Shown here piece by piece: positions 155 through 23,984 of a stretch of DNA of 36,052 bases (position 1 is the stretch's first letter; each line of letters opens with the position of its first letter). Under the pieces are notes generated by a model, which had not been told where the DNA came from, made no database searches, and saw only the letters and a program-made list of their open reading frames with translations. The translations under genes were made by a program, and so were the position numbers. The stretch comes from Muribaculaceae bacterium (GTDB lineage: Bacteria; Bacteroidota; Bacteroidia; Bacteroidales; Muribaculaceae), in NCBI GenBank assembly GCA_017454355.1, contig JAFTDD010000012.1, positions 1 to 36,052 of the forward strand, given 5' to 3'.

Positions 155-169
155 TTGCGGAATTAAGGT

Positions 170-262
170 ATAACAACGTCTATTATCGTCAATTTTTTGT
201 CTAAAATAATTAAGATAGACGGAAATTGACGTTGTTATAGACGTGAATTGACGCTAACCTCA
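170..262. repeat. AT-rich inverted repeat with GTCTAT/CGTCAATT motifs
   Basis: The arm at 178-195, which reads GTCTAT then CGTCAATTT, is mirrored at 223-242, which reads AAATTGAC then ATAGAC. A further ATAGACGTGAATTGACG follows at 236-252. It directly abuts the 1-154 element and is built on the same plan with different short motifs. No coding function is seen. Confidence 0.65.
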
Positions 263-307
263 AAAATTACCGAACTATTGCATTAATTATCCATTAATTT
301 TCGGGCG

Positions 308-10987: not shown

Positions 10988-11242
10988 ATTTAGTTCACGC
11001 AAAAATTCGTAGCCTTAATATCCTCACGAAAATCTCCGAAAAATCCCGAAAAAGAATCTCTCGTAAATTTTCGTAAATTATCGTAAATATCTTATTTTCT
11101 TGATTTTATCGTCAACATTTAATTTACCCTAAAATCCGCAACCTTGAAAATTCTCACGAAAATTTCCGAAAATTATCGAAAAATATTTTCTCGAAATTTG
11201 CGTAAATTGTCGTAAGTATTTTATTCACAGAATATTATAACC
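10988..11242. repeat. Two imperfect tandem copies of a roughly 125-bp AT-rich unit
   Basis: Copy A (about 10988-11112) and copy B (about 11117-11242) share in order a TTTA-rich start, CCTTGAAAATTCTCACGAAAA or close variants, CCGAAAAAT, and CTCGTAAATTTTCGTAAATT-type phased motifs. The region between the protease and infB is otherwise free of genes. I see no tRNA or conserved RNA fold in it. Confidence 0.65.
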
Positions 11243-11341
11243 CAAATTAAATTTACGTAAATTTACGTAGATTTACGAAAATTTACGAGATACAATATTT
11301 TTTCGGAAATTTTCGAGAATTCTCGAGAGATAAATATTGAG
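11180..11341. repeat. AT-rich phased inverted-repeat element, copy 2
   Basis: This copy is closely similar to 1-154. ATTTACG occurs at 11251, 11261, 11271 and 11281, exactly 10 bp apart, giving four units against three in copy 1. The left arm carries CGAAATT at 11192, CGTAAAT at 11201 and CGTAAGT at 11211. It overlaps the second of the tandem 125-bp units. The two copies lie in the same orientation on either side of the phage-type genes and the protease. Confidence 0.85.
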
Positions 11342-11345
11342 CCCA

Positions 11346-11513
11346 CTGCAAAAAGTCGCTGATTAATTTTAAACACGAATTACCATGAATTATCCATGGA
11401 TTTTTATTCTAAATATTACAATTAAAATTAATAATTTATGAATAATTAATGGATAATTTATGGAAATTCATGTTCAAAAATTTTGTTGCGATAGATGTAA
11501 TACTTTTTTGCAG
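11346..11513. repeat. MITE-like AT-rich element with long inverted arms
   Basis: It begins CTGCAAAAAGT (11346-11356) and ends ACTTTTTTGCAG (11502-11513), which are inverted. Inside, CGAATTACCATGAATTATCC on the left is mirrored by GGATAATTTATGGAAATTCA on the right. The start GCAAAAAGTCGCTGAT also opens the element at 23612, and the left arm recurs alone, inverted, at about 22340-22386. It has no coding capacity, and no target-site duplication could be assigned with confidence. Confidence 0.75.
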
Positions 11514-11669
11514 GAGACTCATTAATTAAGGCTCTCGTAAAATTTCGTAAAACTTATCGTATAATCCGTAATCCAAGTTTCCAAAGTAGTTTAATCGATG
11601 ATTTACAACGCTGCAAGGACGAGGCAAGCCTCGTCCTCCGTTAGTAAATTAAATAAAATTCTCAGTCGT

Positions 11670-11940
11670 ACAAACCCACGATAGTGGGTTACACGAACCC
11701 ACGAAGTGGGTTTTACATAAACCCCAGGTTGACACCGCCAAGTGGCTACCTGGGGGTGAGGAGCAGAATATTTCTATGCTACCTCGAAGAGGTTGCACTC
11801 TCTCGCGAGATGGTGCAACCTCTTCGAGGTCGCGACATCTATTATCTTGCTTCATGCCCACAGGTAGTCGCTTCGCTCCAACCTGGGGGTTTTGTAAAAC
11901 CTCTGGCGAGGTTTGTGCAACCCGCTCAAGCGGGTTGTGG
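11670..11940. repeat. Composite REP-like palindrome cluster downstream of infB
   Basis: Hairpins occur in series: AACCCACGATAGTGGGTT at 11673-11690, AACCCACGAAGTGGGTT at 11696-11712, and perfect 18-bp arms at 11781-11798 and 11813-11830 around TCTCGCGAGA. AAACCTC/GAGGTTT follows at 11897-11914 and CAACCCGCT-CA-AGCGGGTTG at 11918-11937. The last two lie 65-105 bp beyond the infB stop and could fold in its transcript, but no T-run follows. Open frames on both strands across this block are products of the palindromes. Confidence 0.8.
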
Positions 11941-16803: not shown

Positions 16804-16826
16804 TCTCTACCTAAATATTACAATTA

Positions 16827-16841
16827 ACTCAAGTTTCTGAT
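16827..16841 (-). promoter_or_regulatory. Shared leader motif ATCAGAAACTTGAGT before rimP
   Basis: On the minus strand ATCAGAAACTTGAGT lies 23 bp before the rimP ATG. The same 15-mer precedes the lipoprotein gene (19780-19794), and its first 13 bases with one change precede sufS (22389-22401). Its role is unknown; it may be the edge of a dispersed element rather than a binding site. The rest of 16804-17108 holds a TAACTTTG box, an AAAAAGTCGCT fragment near 16945, and nothing coding. Confidence 0.6.
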
Positions 16842-17025
16842 GTAAACGTGATTGATAGTCATGTTGATAACAAGTGGTTACTTGTAGGCCCCTACATTTC
16901 TCACAACCATCAATTTATCTACTATAGAAACATATCTAATTCTAAAAAGTCGCTTTGCCTTTTAATGTATGCTCAATGATACAATAAAAAGGAGGAAGCA
17001 GTTGCCCCCTCTCACGAATGCAGCG

Positions 17026-17108: not shown

Positions 17109-18533
17109 TTAGGGCTGCATCAAATCATGCAACGTCACCTGGGCCTGCACAGTGCCGCTATACATATTGCGTTTCACTCCAAACGACGTTACAAACGTCA
17201 ACACCGGCGACTTGCGCGTACCCGTACGAGACAGGAACACCTCCAACTTCTTGTTGACATTCTCGTCAACCGCCTTTGTAATCTCATACTCGCCAACGCT
17301 CCACTTCATCTCACACACATTCACCGTCTGGTCGGCACGGTCAATAAGCAGGTCAATTTGGGCACCGACGTCACCATCTGAGCCCACCACCGACCAGCAA
17401 CACGCACGGCTCTGCACGCCGGCGATGCCCAGCGCACGTTTTATCTGTGACAAATGATTGAGACACAATATCTCGAACGCATATCCACTCCAGGCGTTAT
17501 AACGGGCACTGCGCAACGAGTTGGTCCAATAAGCCGGGTCATGATATCGGTTGCTCGTTACAATATTAAAATGAAAGAGGCTATAAGCGTCAACCAGTTG
17601 GTACAACACTCCACGCTTCGAGCCGTCAAACGGCAGATAACTGCGAACAAAACCGCATTTCTCCAACTCGGCAAGCGTCATCGTCAACTTGCTGTTGTTG
17701 TTCAGTTTTGTCAACTCCACGATTTGCTTGCGCGTCAACCCTTTATTGCGTGTGGACAATGCCGTCACCACGGCAATGTGGTCACCGGCTCTTTTGAATA
17801 GCGACCGGTAGAGGTTATCAAACTCGCCCAGCAGTTCACCATCGGGCGAGAAAAACAACCTGTCGATATTTTGCGACACACTTTGGCGCGCATCCATCAG
17901 CGAATAATAGTATGCCACTCCCCCCATCACCATATAGCACTCGGCAATCTCACGCTCGCGGTAACTGAAACCGTAGGCCGAAAAATATGCTGCCGTTTCG
18001 GCCAAAGTGAACGGAGCCACGTATAGTTGATGGGTGCGACGATTGTGCAGGCCGCCACGATTATTGATGATGTTATCAATCATCCACGAGGTTGATGAGC
18101 CGCACACCACCAATTTCACATCACCGCGGCCATCGGCCCAACCGTTCCAGAAACGCTCCAAAGCCCCGACAAATTTGGATCGCACTGTGTCCAACCACGG
18201 CAGTTCGTCGATAAAAATGATTTTCTCACAGTCGCCAAGCCGCTCCAGATAAGTCTGCAACTCATCAAACGCCTCTAACCAAGACTGCGGAGCCTTTGCC
18301 TCGGGGAACACTCGGCGAAGTGTGAAAAAGAAGTTGGCAAGTTGGTCATGCAAGTCGGCATTCTCCATTCCGGTCAGGTAAAAGCACGCCCTGTCGCCAA
18401 GTGCCCGTTTCACCAGAAAGGTCTTGCCGACACGTCGACGGCCATACACCGCGATAAACTCGGCACGCTCAGAGTCCAGATATTCTTGCAACAAACGCAG
18501 TTCGCGCTCGCGCCCAATCAGTTGCTGTCCCAT
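17109..18533 (-). CDS. AAA ATPase with PD-(D/E)XK nuclease-fold C-terminus (DUF234-type)
   Basis: The 474-residue protein belongs to the archaeal-type ATPase family, which occurs in many paralogous copies in Bacteroidetes. It has Walker A GRRRVGKT (31-38), Walker B IIFIDE (105-110) and a sensor-like CGSSTSW (144-150). A winged-helix-like middle follows (about 245-315, TRNKGLTRKQIVELT). The C-terminal part has the arrangement of a PD-(D/E)XK fold: Glu354 in GYAFE, Asp394 in GAQIDLL, and Glu408-X-Lys410 in VCEMKWS. Family function is not firmly established; roles in defence, mobile elements or DNA processing have been proposed and I cannot choose between them. It stands alone on its strand, between the rimP operon and the lipoprotein gene. 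Its promoter overlaps a palindromic repeat array, which suggests specific control. Confidence 0.88.
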   Translation of the reverse strand: MGQQLIGRERELRLLQEYLDSERAEFIAVYGRRRVGKTFLVKRALGDRACFYLTGMENADLHDQLANFFFTLRRVFPEAKAPQSWLEAFDELQTYLERLGDCEKIIFIDELPWLDTVRSKFVGALERFWNGWADGRGDVKLVVCGSSTSWMIDNIINNRGGLHNRRTHQLYVAPFTLAETAAYFSAYGFSYREREIAECYMVMGGVAYYYSLMDARQSVSQNIDRLFFSPDGELLGEFDNLYRSLFKRAGDHIAVVTALSTRNKGLTRKQIVELTKLNNNSKLTMTLAELEKCGFVRSYLPFDGSKRGVLYQLVDAYSLFHFNIVTSNRYHDPAYWTNSLRSARYNAWSGYAFEILCLNHLSQIKRALGIAGVQSRACCWSVVGSDGDVGAQIDLLIDRADQTVNVCEMKWSVGEYEITKAVDENVNKKLEVFLSRTGTRKSPVLTFVTSFGVKRNMYSGTVQAQVTLHDLMQP

Positions 18534-18597: not shown

Positions 18598-18730
18598 TTT
18601 CGGAGTTGAAAACTGCTCAAATGGGATAAAAAAAATCGCGTTTGAGCAAGTTTCAGAGTTGAAATCTGCTTAAACGGGGTAAAAAAAATCGCGTTTGAGC
18701 AAGTTTCAGAGTTGAAAACTGCTCAAACGC
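18587..18730. repeat. Three tandem 53-bp repeats each containing a 9-bp palindrome
   Basis: Copies start at 18587, 18640 and 18693; the third stops after about 38 bp. Each has GTTTGAGCA and its complement TGCTCAAAC (with one or two changes in copies 1 and 2) around AGTTTCAGAGTTGAAAAC, which is itself partly symmetric. Copies 1 and 2 are linked to the next by GGGATAAAAAAAATCGC or a variant. The array lies immediately upstream of the ATPase start and overlaps its -33 box. With three copies and short A-rich linkers it is not a CRISPR. Confidence 0.88.
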
Positions 18731-20661: not shown

Positions 20662-20682
20662 ATTTTTGAGTTTAGTGTTCAA

Positions 20683-20718
20683 AATTCTTAGAGTTCTTAG
20701 AATTCTTAGAGTTCTAAG
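20683..20718. repeat. 9-bp-period TTCTTAGAG/TTCTTAGAA repeat between sufC and sufD
   Basis: TTCTTAG occurs at 20685, 20694 and 20703, followed by TTCTAAG, making a partly symmetric block. Read as protein it would give a repetitive LRVLRILRVL extension of SufD, which argues against an upstream SufD start. Confidence 0.7.
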
Positions 20719-20743
20719 CACGGAAATAGACACGAACCATTCA

Positions 20744-22093
20744 ATGCAACAATATATTGACCTATATAACGAACATCGCGAGGCATTCCACCGCGACGCC
20801 CCGGCGGCACTCAACGCCCTGCGCGAGCGCGCCCTGCAGGTGGTCGCCGGCACTCCCCTGCCGCCGCGCGGCAGCGACGACCACGAGGCCATCGACTTGC
20901 CGGAGATGTTCGCGACGGACTACGGCCTCAACGTCAGCCGCCTGAACATCGACCCGCGGCTGGCCGAGAGTTTCCACTGCGATGTGCCTAACCTGAGCAC
21001 CGCCCTGTGGTGTGTCGCCGGCGATGTGCCGCGCCCCACCGCCACCGCCCTGCGGCCTATGCCGGGCGTTGACGTGATGACACTGCGGCAAGCCGGCCAG
21101 CGGTGCCCCGAACTGCTTGAGCAATACTTGGGCCAGGCGGCCGACATCAGCCAACCTGTTGTCGCCCTGAACACACTGCTTGCTCAGGACGGCCTGCTGA
21201 TCCACGTCCACGAGGGCGTCACCTGCCCCAAACCGATACAAATCGTTAACATCCTCAACGCCACCGCGCCTATGATGGCCGTCAGGCGCCTGCTCGTCGT
21301 GGCCGATAGCGGAGCCAACGTCAAGCTCCTTCTCTGCGACCACACCCAGCGCGACGGCGTGCCGATGCTGTCGCTGCAGGTCACGGAGGTGTTTGCCGCC
21401 AGTGGCGCCACAATCGACGTTTATGACCTGGAGGAGGCCACAGCGGCCACACGCCGCGTCAACGCCAGTTTTGTCAGCCAGAGCGACAACTCCAACGTGC
21501 TCGTGGACACCATCACCCTGAGCGGAGGCACCACGCGCAACGAAATCACCGTGGACGCCAATGACCCCGGCACGGAGACACACCTGCTGGGAATGGCGAT
21601 TGCCGACGGCTCGCAGACCGTTGACAACCGCACCCTAATCCGCCACCACGCGCCGCGCTGCGACAGCAACGAGATGTATAAATACGTCCTCGACGACAAG
21701 GCCGTCGGCGGCTTTGAGGGACGCATCCGCGTGGACGAGGGCTGCCCGCGAGTGGAGGCATACCAAGGCAACCGCAACCTGCTCGCCGCCGCAACTGCCC
21801 GAATGCACACCAAGCCTCAACTGGAGATCTACACCGACGACGTCCGCTGCAGCCACGGCACGACCATCGGCCAACTGGACGACGACGCCCTGTTCTACAT
21901 GCAGTCGCGTGGCATCCCGCGCGACACCGCCCGCACCATGCTCATGCAAGCCTTTATGGCAGACGTTATCGACGCCGTGCGCCTCGACGTGCTGCGCGAC
22001 CGCCTGCGCCACCTCGTCGACAAGCGCTTTGCCGGGCAACTCGCCTCGTGCGCCAACTGCCACATCCAATCCCCCCGCCCGCCTATCGGCTAA
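20744..22093 (+). CDS. sufD: Fe-S cluster assembly protein SufD
   Basis: SufD is the scaffold partner of SufB and SufC in iron-sulfur cluster assembly. From the ATG at 20744 the protein has 449 residues. The N-terminal helical region (MQQYIDLYNEHREAF) is followed by the long beta-helix core. The conserved C-terminal part includes VGGFEGRIRV, AYQGNRNLL, then DVRCSHGTTIGQLDDDALFY and RGIPRDTARTML, diagnostic for the SufB/SufD family. An in-frame start at 20666 is rejected because the extra 26 codons lie largely in the TTCTTAG repeat. The stop codon opens a short CGACTATCAACTATCGAC repeat. SufD rather than SufB is chosen from the length, the sequence and the position between sufC and sufS. Confidence 0.93.
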   Translation: MQQYIDLYNEHREAFHRDAPAALNALRERALQVVAGTPLPPRGSDDHEAIDLPEMFATDYGLNVSRLNIDPRLAESFHCDVPNLSTALWCVAGDVPRPTATALRPMPGVDVMTLRQAGQRCPELLEQYLGQAADISQPVVALNTLLAQDGLLIHVHEGVTCPKPIQIVNILNATAPMMAVRRLLVVADSGANVKLLLCDHTQRDGVPMLSLQVTEVFAASGATIDVYDLEEATAATRRVNASFVSQSDNSNVLVDTITLSGGTTRNEITVDANDPGTETHLLGMAIADGSQTVDNRTLIRHHAPRCDSNEMYKYVLDDKAVGGFEGRIRVDEGCPRVEAYQGNRNLLAAATARMHTKPQLEIYTDDVRCSHGTTIGQLDDDALFYMQSRGIPRDTARTMLMQAFMADVIDAVRLDVLRDRLRHLVDKRFAGQLASCANCHIQSPRPPIG

Positions 22094-22119
22094 CGACTAT
22101 CAACTATCGACTAACTCCT

Positions 22120-22338
22120 CTCGTCTATTTCCGTCTATTTTCCGTCTATTATTCTCACGAAAAATCCGTAAAATCTTTCTCGTAAAATATTGCATCCCGT
22201 GAATTTCCGTGAACTTTCGTGAAATATTATTATTATGAAAATCAGGGAATAATGCCAATTTTGAAATATATAGTAATCACGGGAATTCACGTTAATTCAC
22301 GGGAGATATAAAGATAAAAATAGACGTAAATAGACGAG
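22120..22338. repeat. Concentric AT-rich palindrome between sufD and sufS
   Basis: The outer arms 22120-22139 and 22319-22338 pair at 19 of 20 positions and carry CGTCTATTT units. The inner arms 22196-22222 and 22277-22303 carry CGTGAA at 22198, 22208 and 22218, mirrored by TCACG at 22277, 22287 and 22297, all exactly 10 bp apart. Between the nested arms lies another stretch with CGTAAAA motifs. The element fills most of the 308-bp sufD-sufS gap and could form a large structure in the operon mRNA. Confidence 0.85.
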
Positions 22339-22339
22339 A

Positions 22340-22386
22340 GGTTAAATTCATGGATAATTCATGGTAATTCGTGTTTAAAATTATTT
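22340..22386. repeat. Solo arm of the 11346-type element before sufS
   Basis: GTTAAATTCATGGATAATTC and the following bases are the inverted counterpart of the left arm at about 11359-11403. It ends a few bases before the sufS leader motif. Confidence 0.65.
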
Positions 22387-22388
22387 AT

Positions 22389-22401
22389 ATCAGAAACTTG
22401 A
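22389..22401 (+). promoter_or_regulatory. Shared leader motif ATCAGAAACTTGA abutting the sufS start
   Basis: The 13-mer matches the leader motif of rimP and of the lipoprotein gene. It runs directly into the sufS ATG at 22402 and leaves no room for a Shine-Dalgarno sequence other than the motif itself. Confidence 0.55.
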
Positions 22402-23592
22402 ATGACTGACCAATTCCCGATACTGCAACGGCAAGTGAACAGCCACCGCCTCGTCTATCTCGACAACGCGGCCACCAGCCTCACGCCGGAGGCCGTTGTG
22501 AACGCCATCGCCGACTTCTACCGCCACCACAACGCCAACGTCCACCGCGGCGTGCACTCTTTGTCGCAGGAAGCGACCACGCTGCTCGAGGACGCGCGCC
22601 GCCGTGTGGCCGCCTTTATCAACGCGCCCTCGCCGCGGCACATCGTCTTCACCCGCGGCACCACCGAGGCCATCAACCTTGTCGCCTCATCACTCGGACA
22701 ATCATTTGAGGGTGGCGATGAAGTCATCGTCACCGCCATGGAGCACCACAGCAACATCGTGCCCTGGCAACTCATCAACAGCCGCTGCCGAGTGCGCCTG
22801 CGCGTAGTGCCGCTGCTGCCCGACGGCTCGCTCGACATGGATGCCCTCGACAGTCTCTTCAACGATAGCACACGCCTAGTCGCTGTCACCCACGTGAGCA
22901 ACGTGCTGGGCACCGTCAACCCTGTCGAGCGCATCACCGCCATCGCCCACAGCCACGGCGTGCCCGTGCTCGTTGACGGCGCGCAGGCCGTGGCCCACCG
23001 CCGTGTCGACGTCCAAGCCATCGACTGCGACTTCTACGCCTTCTCAGCCCACAAGATGTACGGGCCGATGGGTGCCGGCGTGCTCTACGGCAAGAACCTC
23101 GACAAGTTGCCGCCCTATCAGGGCGGCGGCGAAATGGTCGACAAAGTGACGATGGAGCGCACCACCTACCAGAACGCGCCGCTGCGTTTTGAGGCCGGCA
23201 CACCCTCGGTGGCCGACATCGTCGCGCTGCCGGCCGCCATCAACTGGATTGAGAGCGTGAGTTGGGAACAGATACATGACACCGAGCAGGCGCTGCTCAC
23301 GCGCGCCACCGCCGGTCTGGAGCACGTGCCCGGCCTTCACATTCTCGGCACCGCGCCCGACAAGGACGCCGTGCTGTCGTTTGTCATCAACGGCACCAGC
23401 AGTTACGACATCGGCGTGCTACTCGACCAGCAAGGCGTGGCCGTGCGCACCGGCCACCACTGTGCCGAGCCGTTAATGGCGCGCTTGGGCATCGACGGTT
23501 GTGTGCGCGCCTCGTTTGCCCCCTACAACACCGTTGACGACGTCGACGCCCTCGTCAACGCCACCATGCGCGCCGCCTCTATGCTCCGCTAA
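22402..23592 (+). CDS. sufS: Cysteine desulfurase SufS
   Basis: SufS is the pyridoxal-phosphate enzyme that takes sulfur from cysteine as a persulfide and supplies it to the SufBCD scaffold. The protein has 396 residues, near the usual 405. It has the N-terminal YLDNAATS, cofactor-contacting His115 in MEHHSN and Asp192 in VLVDGAQ, Schiff-base Lys218 in AFSAHKMYGP, and catalytic Cys354 in VRTGHHCAEPLM, the group II (SufS/CsdA) form. It is third in sufCDS, 308 bp after sufD because of the inserted palindrome. A strong terminator lies at 23806-23863. No SufE or SufU partner is in the window. Confidence 0.96.
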   Translation: MTDQFPILQRQVNSHRLVYLDNAATSLTPEAVVNAIADFYRHHNANVHRGVHSLSQEATTLLEDARRRVAAFINAPSPRHIVFTRGTTEAINLVASSLGQSFEGGDEVIVTAMEHHSNIVPWQLINSRCRVRLRVVPLLPDGSLDMDALDSLFNDSTRLVAVTHVSNVLGTVNPVERITAIAHSHGVPVLVDGAQAVAHRRVDVQAIDCDFYAFSAHKMYGPMGAGVLYGKNLDKLPPYQGGGEMVDKVTMERTTYQNAPLRFEAGTPSVADIVALPAAINWIESVSWEQIHDTEQALLTRATAGLEHVPGLHILGTAPDKDAVLSFVINGTSSYDIGVLLDQQGVAVRTGHHCAEPLMARLGIDGCVRASFAPYNTVDDVDALVNATMRAASMLR

Positions 23593-23724: not shown

Positions 23725-23756
23725 AAGCGCAAACCCGCGGAGCGGGCGACAGCCCA

Positions 23757-23917
23757 TAGGCGGGGGTGGAGCGAAGCGGAACCCCCGTGACAAATGCACA
23801 TTATTAGCCCCGTAGGGGCGGCAGAAACTTTCACGGAATTCTGTCGCCCCTACGGGGCTTTTTGTTTGAGATTCAATTCTATTACACGGGGGTTCCGCTT
23901 CGCTCCACCCCCGCCTA
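23757..23917. repeat. Perfect 33-bp inverted repeat enclosing a 21-bp hairpin
   Basis: Arms 23757-23789 and 23885-23917 are exact complements, starting TAGGCGGGGGTGGAGCGAAG on the left. A second, nested inverted repeat pairs 23806-23826 with 23839-23859. The same 33-nt arm occurs alone at 380-412. The block spans most of the gap between the convergent genes sufS and the LRR gene. Confidence 0.9.
23806..23863 (+). terminator. Long-stem intrinsic terminator of sufCDS
   Basis: A 21-bp stem (20 matches) with a 12-nt loop ends in GGGGCT and runs into TTTTT at 23859-23863. It lies about 215 bp after the sufS stop. It is derived from the REP-like element, so a dispersed repeat appears to serve as the terminator. 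The minus-strand side has no T-run. Confidence 0.75.
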
Positions 23918-23984
23918 GGAGCTTATCACCCACTTCGTGGGTTCCCGGCCACTCCTCTAAAATCTAACATCTAAAATCTAACAT

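Follow-up and report, generated by a model that had tools for sequence, protein, structure and literature searches.

Foldback transposons of eukaryotes carry long inverted arms made of short repeats, as does the locus described here, although host and ends differ. BrickBuilt, a bacterial MITE of Porphyromonas gingivalis, contains head-to-tail 23-nt repeats and, as portrayed in that source, resembles the elements reported below in being short and non-coding, with terminal inverted repeats, internal repeated units and a Bacteroidales host; in contrast, the 10-bp-spaced units found here make inverted, layered arms and are common to families with unrelated ends (PMC4596501). Insertion sequences of the IS1380 family, to which ISEcp1 belongs, are described with a 5-bp target duplication (PMC2887853). 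The elements termed family 1 here have the same duplication length, and their terminal repeats match an IS1380 element of the same genus, but they are without a coding region and no likeness was seen past the ends. REP and CGTC-tagged palindromes, in the account given of them, are likewise intergenic, palindromic and of high copy number, and one unit type found here contains CGTC; the present elements differ in being mostly 64-301 bp long, in having target duplications around full copies, and in carrying CGTC inside predicted paired arms rather than as an unpaired end tag (PMC3733652). A literature search found no paper on IS1380-type MITEs of such a build, which is not proof of absence.

The window analysed here is a stretch of 36,052 nt that makes up the whole of contig C83 of a Muribaculaceae genome (G000), a 2.7-Mb draft in 102 contigs; G016 is its sister genome. 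NCBIfam models identify the genes flanking the element of interest as SufD, SufS and SufC. The sequence-only reading had described an outer and an inner pair of palindromic arms at 22120..22338, and both pairs are real. The outer arms (22117-22141/22317-22341) are 25 nt long, 96% complementary and separated by 175 nt, and the inner arms (22195-22222/22277-22304) are 28 nt long, 82% complementary and separated by 54 nt. The element has a predicted fold energy of -79.9 kcal/mol, compared with -40.1 +- 4.5 for 200 shuffles (z -8.9, no shuffle equal), and z is -8.2 when it is folded as DNA. The 10-bp spacing that had been reported for the units holds for the inner CGTGAA units, whereas one step in the outer arm (22132-22150) is 11 bp. 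Beyond the two layers already described, a third, half-lost layer (repeat families D6 and D8) lies between the outer and inner left arms at about 22154-22191, and this layer is also present in related copies. The family-4 half at the right edge of the element has a 40-nt match, at 97.5%, to window positions 11364-11403, and the possible further end beyond it overlaps the first bases of sufS.

Table 1 Features of the suf region and of other elements in the window.
Feature	Position	Strand	Evidence or remark
Family-1 element, cut by contig start	1..168	-	Right end CCTTAATTCCGCAAC at 154-168
Family-2 element remainder	169..280	+	End CAATAGTTCGGTAA at 267-280
Left half of another phased palindrome	11023..11127	+	CGAAAATC-like and CGTAAATT units
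Family-1 element	11128..11345	+	Left end intact (11128-11142), right end decayed
Family-4 palindrome	11352..11525	+	GCAAAAAGTCGC-like ends; arms 11367-11405 / 11441-11479
sufD	20666..22093	+	TIGR01981, 226.8 bits, cut-off 222
Nested palindromic element, end-lacking copy of the 300-bp family-1 MITE-like element	22113..22341	+	Alignment to L094
Outer left arm	22117..22150	+	Three CGTCTATT units, in steps of 10 and 11 bp
Half-lost middle layer	22154..22191	+	One CGAAAAAT and two CGTAAAAT units; without clear right partner
Inner left arm	22195..22228	+	Three CGTGAA units, 10 bp apart
Inner right arm	22277..22304	-	Inverted CGTGAATT-type units
Outer right arm	22317..22341	-	Two inverted CGTCTATT units
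Family-4 half palindrome (another phased family), at right edge of suf element	22342..22378	-	Pattern match C83:22345-22369
ACTCAAGTTTCTGATGTA-like candidate end of an additional repeat family	22386..22403	-	Tentative; needs up to 3 mismatches
sufS	22402..23592	+	TIGR01979, 543.3 bits, cut-off 475.1

We conclude that the suf feature is very probably a decayed copy of a MITE-like mobile element, moved by an IS1380-family transposase acting in trans, in which modules were stacked by insertion and core replacement. Positions 22113-22336 align to a copy in the sister genome (L094) with 96.9% agreement over 224 columns. The G016 copy extends on both sides to the ends CCTAAAATCCGCAAC and CCTTAATTCCGCAAC, and the suf copy is without both of them. 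It consists of the CGTCTATT module and its contents without the shell, and in the alignment with full copies neither terminal repeats of its own nor a target duplication were found.

The nested architecture recurs at other loci, as had been supposed from the window: CGTNNATTNNCGTNNATT has 160+179 matches in G000, where the reversed control has none, 65+68 (133) in G016, and 0-1 in each of 35 other genomes of the genus. G000 and G016 are incomplete drafts (89% and 94% complete). Up to 600 bp upstream of sufS, nine units are present in G000 and none at the 29 other loci of the genus that were examined, G016 included; these loci are a part of the 59 other genomes with a sufS match, and one of them (L059) offers only 205 bp upstream. 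The gap between sufD and sufS in G016 is about 55-63 nt. The nested palindrome is not a conserved suf feature. Unit pairs fall inside ATG-initiated ORFs of 200 or more codons in none of 99 cases in the G000 stretches (window included) and in one of 63 in G016, while such ORFs take up 79% of the fetched 20-kb stretches used for this count. A distant search of the plasmid collection, with window positions 22100-22402 as query, returned no match. A scan of named genomes for CGTVDATTTNCGTVDATTTNCGTVDATT gave 22 stretches, ten of them from CAMHQD01, which we infer to be G016, and the remaining 12 from different records; as judged by eye, direct tandem repeats make up most of these 12, with an additional inverted partner in one case (L206). 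At L190, L194, L198 and L206, in records of unrelated phyla, CGTNNATT-like units form 10-bp repeats arranged head to tail.

Full family-1 copies are mostly 64-301 bp long, with ends CCTAAAATCCGCAAC and CCTTAATTCCGCAAC. Among 29 elements for which both ends and the flanks were available (one, a 399-bp pairing, has a poor end match), 12 are bordered by exact 5-bp duplications, where cross-pairing gives an expectation of 0.21. Because L130 and L142 represent the same site in two genomes, the 12 amount to 11 independent sites. With up to one mismatch allowed, the count is 17 of 29, and no other length is prominent; five of the 17 elements without an exact duplication are one base off. Exact matches to CCTNAANTCCGCAAC number 71 in G000 and 21 in G016, with none in five other genomes of the genus, and a slightly looser pattern has 1-10 matches in four genomes of the genus picked for their IS1380 genes. 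As a group, family-1 elements have the characters of MITEs, being short, multicopy and without a transposase gene, with terminal inverted repeats and a target duplication. A 64-bp element is a shell without the CGTCTATT module. As a separate observation, a RAYT-like (Y1_Tnp) gene of G000 (L126, contig C77, 811-1410) is split by a family-1 element of 253 bp, flanked on either side by ATTAG.

Family 2 has CGTCTATT units in common with family 1, but its ends are different (like CAATASTTCGGTAA). Exact 6-bp duplications border five of ten family-2 elements, where 0.00 would be expected; in one of these five the duplicated sequence is AAAAAA. Its ends match in nine of 61 genomes and extend beyond G000 and G016, including G048 (20 matches) and G006 (5 matches). 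Family 3 (six pairs, one with an exact 5-bp repeat) and family 4 (one pair) are too few for a duplication test; the family-4 pattern has 44 matches in G000, 14 in G016 and one each in G011 and G022. Since families 1 and 2 have different ends, and duplications of 5 and 6 bp respectively, the elements are MITE-like and of at least two kinds, and the single family proposed in the sequence-only reading has to be divided accordingly.

The IS1380 transposase model PF13701 matched nine of 61 genomes of the genus, five of them above the cut-off, and had no match in the incomplete drafts of G000 and G016. In G034 (L155), a 1594-bp insertion sequence has the ends CCTAAATTCCGCAGC and CCTAAAATCCGCAAC and AATAA on both sides, and its protein belongs to the IS1380 family (NF033539, 312.4 bits, cut-off 180). 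Family-1 and IS1380 element ends agree at 15 of 15 positions at one end (L155, L156), and at 13 of 15 (L155, L156) or 14 of 15 (L157) at the other. An IS1380 element in G072 has the same ends as that of G034, without a clear duplication. When the IS1380 protein was used as query, one broken match was found in G000, on contig C37 (52% identity over residues 1-206, one stop), between the similar ends CCTTAAATCCGCACC and CCTAAAATCCGCAAG, which span 937 bp; G016 had no match, and no intact IS1380 gene was found in either draft. Because of the IS1380-type terminal repeats and the 5-bp duplications, an IS1380-family transposase acting in trans is the likely mover of family 1. An element with ends matching those of family 2 is present in G059: it is 1373 bp long, begins and ends with CAATAGTTCGGTAA and is flanked on either side by TTAGTA. 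Its 405-aa protein scores below the cut-offs of the IS701 and IS4 transposase models and above that of DDE_Tnp_1. Elements of this type are present in four of eight genomes tried, and not in G000 or G016.

The earlier proposal that modules are interchangeable and nested inside one another is supported by several loci. In three cases an element sits inside another palindrome and is bordered by its own target duplication. At L120 932-1112, the loop of a family-2 element holds a family-1 element flanked by GTCTA; at L127 1127-1190, the 64-bp family-1 element, flanked by GTAAA, is found within a CGTGAATT palindrome that has no known ends; and at L075 14622-14792, a family-2 element flanked by TTTACG occupies an arm of a CGTAAATT palindrome. 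Two family-1 elements of 253 bp (L062) and 301 bp (L070) have shells that are identical at 109 of 110 positions on the left and at 61 of 66 on the right, whereas their cores agree in only 60 of 129 aligned columns. At L064 11331-11593, the left half of one type is joined to the right half of another. A phased unit is present in the outer 60 bp at 27 of 120 family-1 ends, a count that includes both ends of some elements, versus 716 of 6000 random non-ORF points, a control that includes points inside elements. Phased modules were also seen in a row and in one direction, not nested, at L226 346-480 (G016 contig C68), L111 266-416 and L072 755-955.

Within the window, the sequence-only reading had assigned the same architecture to 1-154, 170-262 and 11180-11341. 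Elements are present at all of these loci, although they are not all of one kind (Table 1). The family-2 remainder near the contig start is apparently interrupted by the adjoining family-1 element, its other half lying beyond the start of the contig. Positions 16808-16976, which start with ACTCAAGTTTCTGATGTA, are missing at the orthologous G016 site (gap of 167 versus 7 nt), and this stretch is probably a further mobile family (family 3). By eye, a unit of about 53 bp (GTTTGAGCAAGTTTC...) is present in three tandem copies at 18600-18730, upstream of a minus-strand gene at 17109-18533. GC-rich repeats (CCCACGAAGTGGGTT, AGCCCCGTAGGGGC and others) at 11600-11900 and 23750-23960 resemble, by eye, the flanks of RAYT-like genes in G000. 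Overlapping 14-mers with 35-36 copies in the G000 stretches spell GTTGTGAATTGCTTTCAAATTTGTATCTTTGCAGGAGATTTGGCAAC, a candidate CRISPR repeat from its appearance. The G000 contigs C13, C14, C22, C27 and C83 begin inside elements of the kind described here, and the assembly is fragmented by them, since contigs begin inside elements.

A very stable predicted hairpin within an operon could instead be a functional RNA structure of the suf mRNA, such as a processing site, a stabiliser or an attenuator between sufD and sufS. We regard this as very unlikely, since the element is missing from the 29 relatives examined. Covariation between the arms, which had been put forward as a check, did not appear: changes on both sides were found in one of 77 predicted pairs and the covariation term (+1.56) was unfavourable, a comparison of five suf-type copies with low power. 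At the gathering score, Rfam returned only 5S rRNA in the window and nothing at the suf element, and the region 21900-22600 yielded no terminator-like site; sigma-70-like sites numbered two, versus 0.8 +- 0.9 in shuffles, and were not counted as evidence. As had been pointed out, the structure would be part of the mRNA, provided that transcription continues through the operon. No finding points to a suf function, however, and the likeliest reading of this copy is a relic without a role in suf expression. It is also very unlikely that these are REP-type palindromes moved by RAYT (Y1 transposase). Y1_Tnp matches are indeed present (ten in G000, the highest number among 61 genomes of the genus, and nine each in G016 and G066), and a phased array with units at 346-480 was found within 700 bp of one RAYT-like place (L226, G016), at a distance of about 590 bp and to one side of the gene only. 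However, of the 14 such places examined, which cover eight of the ten G000 and seven of the nine G016 matches, 13 showed no phased pair within the available flanks; these reached up to 700 bp, five places having less sequence on one side. By eye, their flanks hold other, mostly GC-rich repeats, and the full elements have 5- or 6-bp duplications and DDE-type partners. Palindromes flanking a RAYT gene, as in a REP/RAYT system, are absent from nearly all places examined, and that candidate is weakened. Two RAYT-like places have a family-4-like stretch downstream.

The phased modules themselves may be more than cargo. Throughout G000, 75 of 76 CGTCTATT pairs with gaps of 0-8 are spaced at 10 bp, the exception being the suf copy; in selected stretches, a sample biased by having been chosen for unit or end matches, spacings of 10 and 11 bp number 94 and 1 in G000 and 60 and 1 in G016. 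In 17 CGTRAATT modules, de-duplicated from 51, the two arms agree at 350 of 408 motif-core positions compared with 329.5 +- 7.1 (8 of 2000 shuffles as high), whereas at the 2-bp linkers they agree at 26 of 68 compared with 25.8 (1046 of 2000 as high). Motif and spacing look like the constrained feature, and exact spacing with free linkers points to protein recognition on one helix face. These data are consistent with a reading in which the modules are working arrays bound by a DNA-binding protein that the host or an element encodes, with the mobile elements as carriers only and gene-near copies serving as regulatory or nucleoid sites. The presence of the same CGTCTATT units in two families with unrelated ends also favours it. 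On the other hand, the suf copy breaks the spacing, relatives do without a suf copy, the core agreement is due in part to module class and not to independent changes, and arms of differing classes are combined in some modules, so that we hold this reading as a tentative one that is compatible with mobile elements but which we do not favour as it stands. Our best guess is that the phased units are recognised by a putative DNA-binding protein, a guess compatible with the mobile-element reading. IS1380 transposition does not account for inner modules without known ends of their own, the CGTGAATT module among them. A bolder proposal, which we consider unlikely, is that the phased modules are cassettes in their own right, copied or moved between MITE families with unrelated transposases (IS1380 type and IS701/IS4-like), that they are arrays for a putative DNA-binding protein, and that the layers arose as they settled in one another's centres. 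If true, this would be a genetic element parasitising other non-autonomous elements.

Returning to the mobile-element reading, copy number, ends, duplications, matching insertion sequences, nesting, swapped cores and absence from the examined relatives were directly observed and are consistent with the following course of events. A non-coding MITE-like element, of which the present copy is the decayed form, would, in this lineage, have arrived between sufD and sufS. Family-1 elements, with IS1380-type terminal repeats of about 15 bp and 5-bp duplications, would have been moved in trans by an IS1380-family transposase that recognised their ends. The concentric look would result from short palindromic modules, with 8-bp units one helical turn apart, stacked within one another by insertion of element into element and by replacement of cores in conserved shells, the core swapping presumably being the work of recombination. 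The suf copy may have come as a full element that then lost its ends or, alternatively, may have moved as an inner module.

The feature was initially taken for an unfamiliar type. It is now largely explained by MITE-like elements with IS1380-type and IS701/IS4-like partners, although the common phased modules remain unusual; what is new is the occurrence of nested, helically phased modules common to MITE-like families with unrelated ends. Such nests break draft assemblies and may be mistaken for operon RNA structures. These observations portray a bacterial lineage in which the gaps between genes are filled in layers by small mobile elements, whose shells and cores are exchanged like parts.
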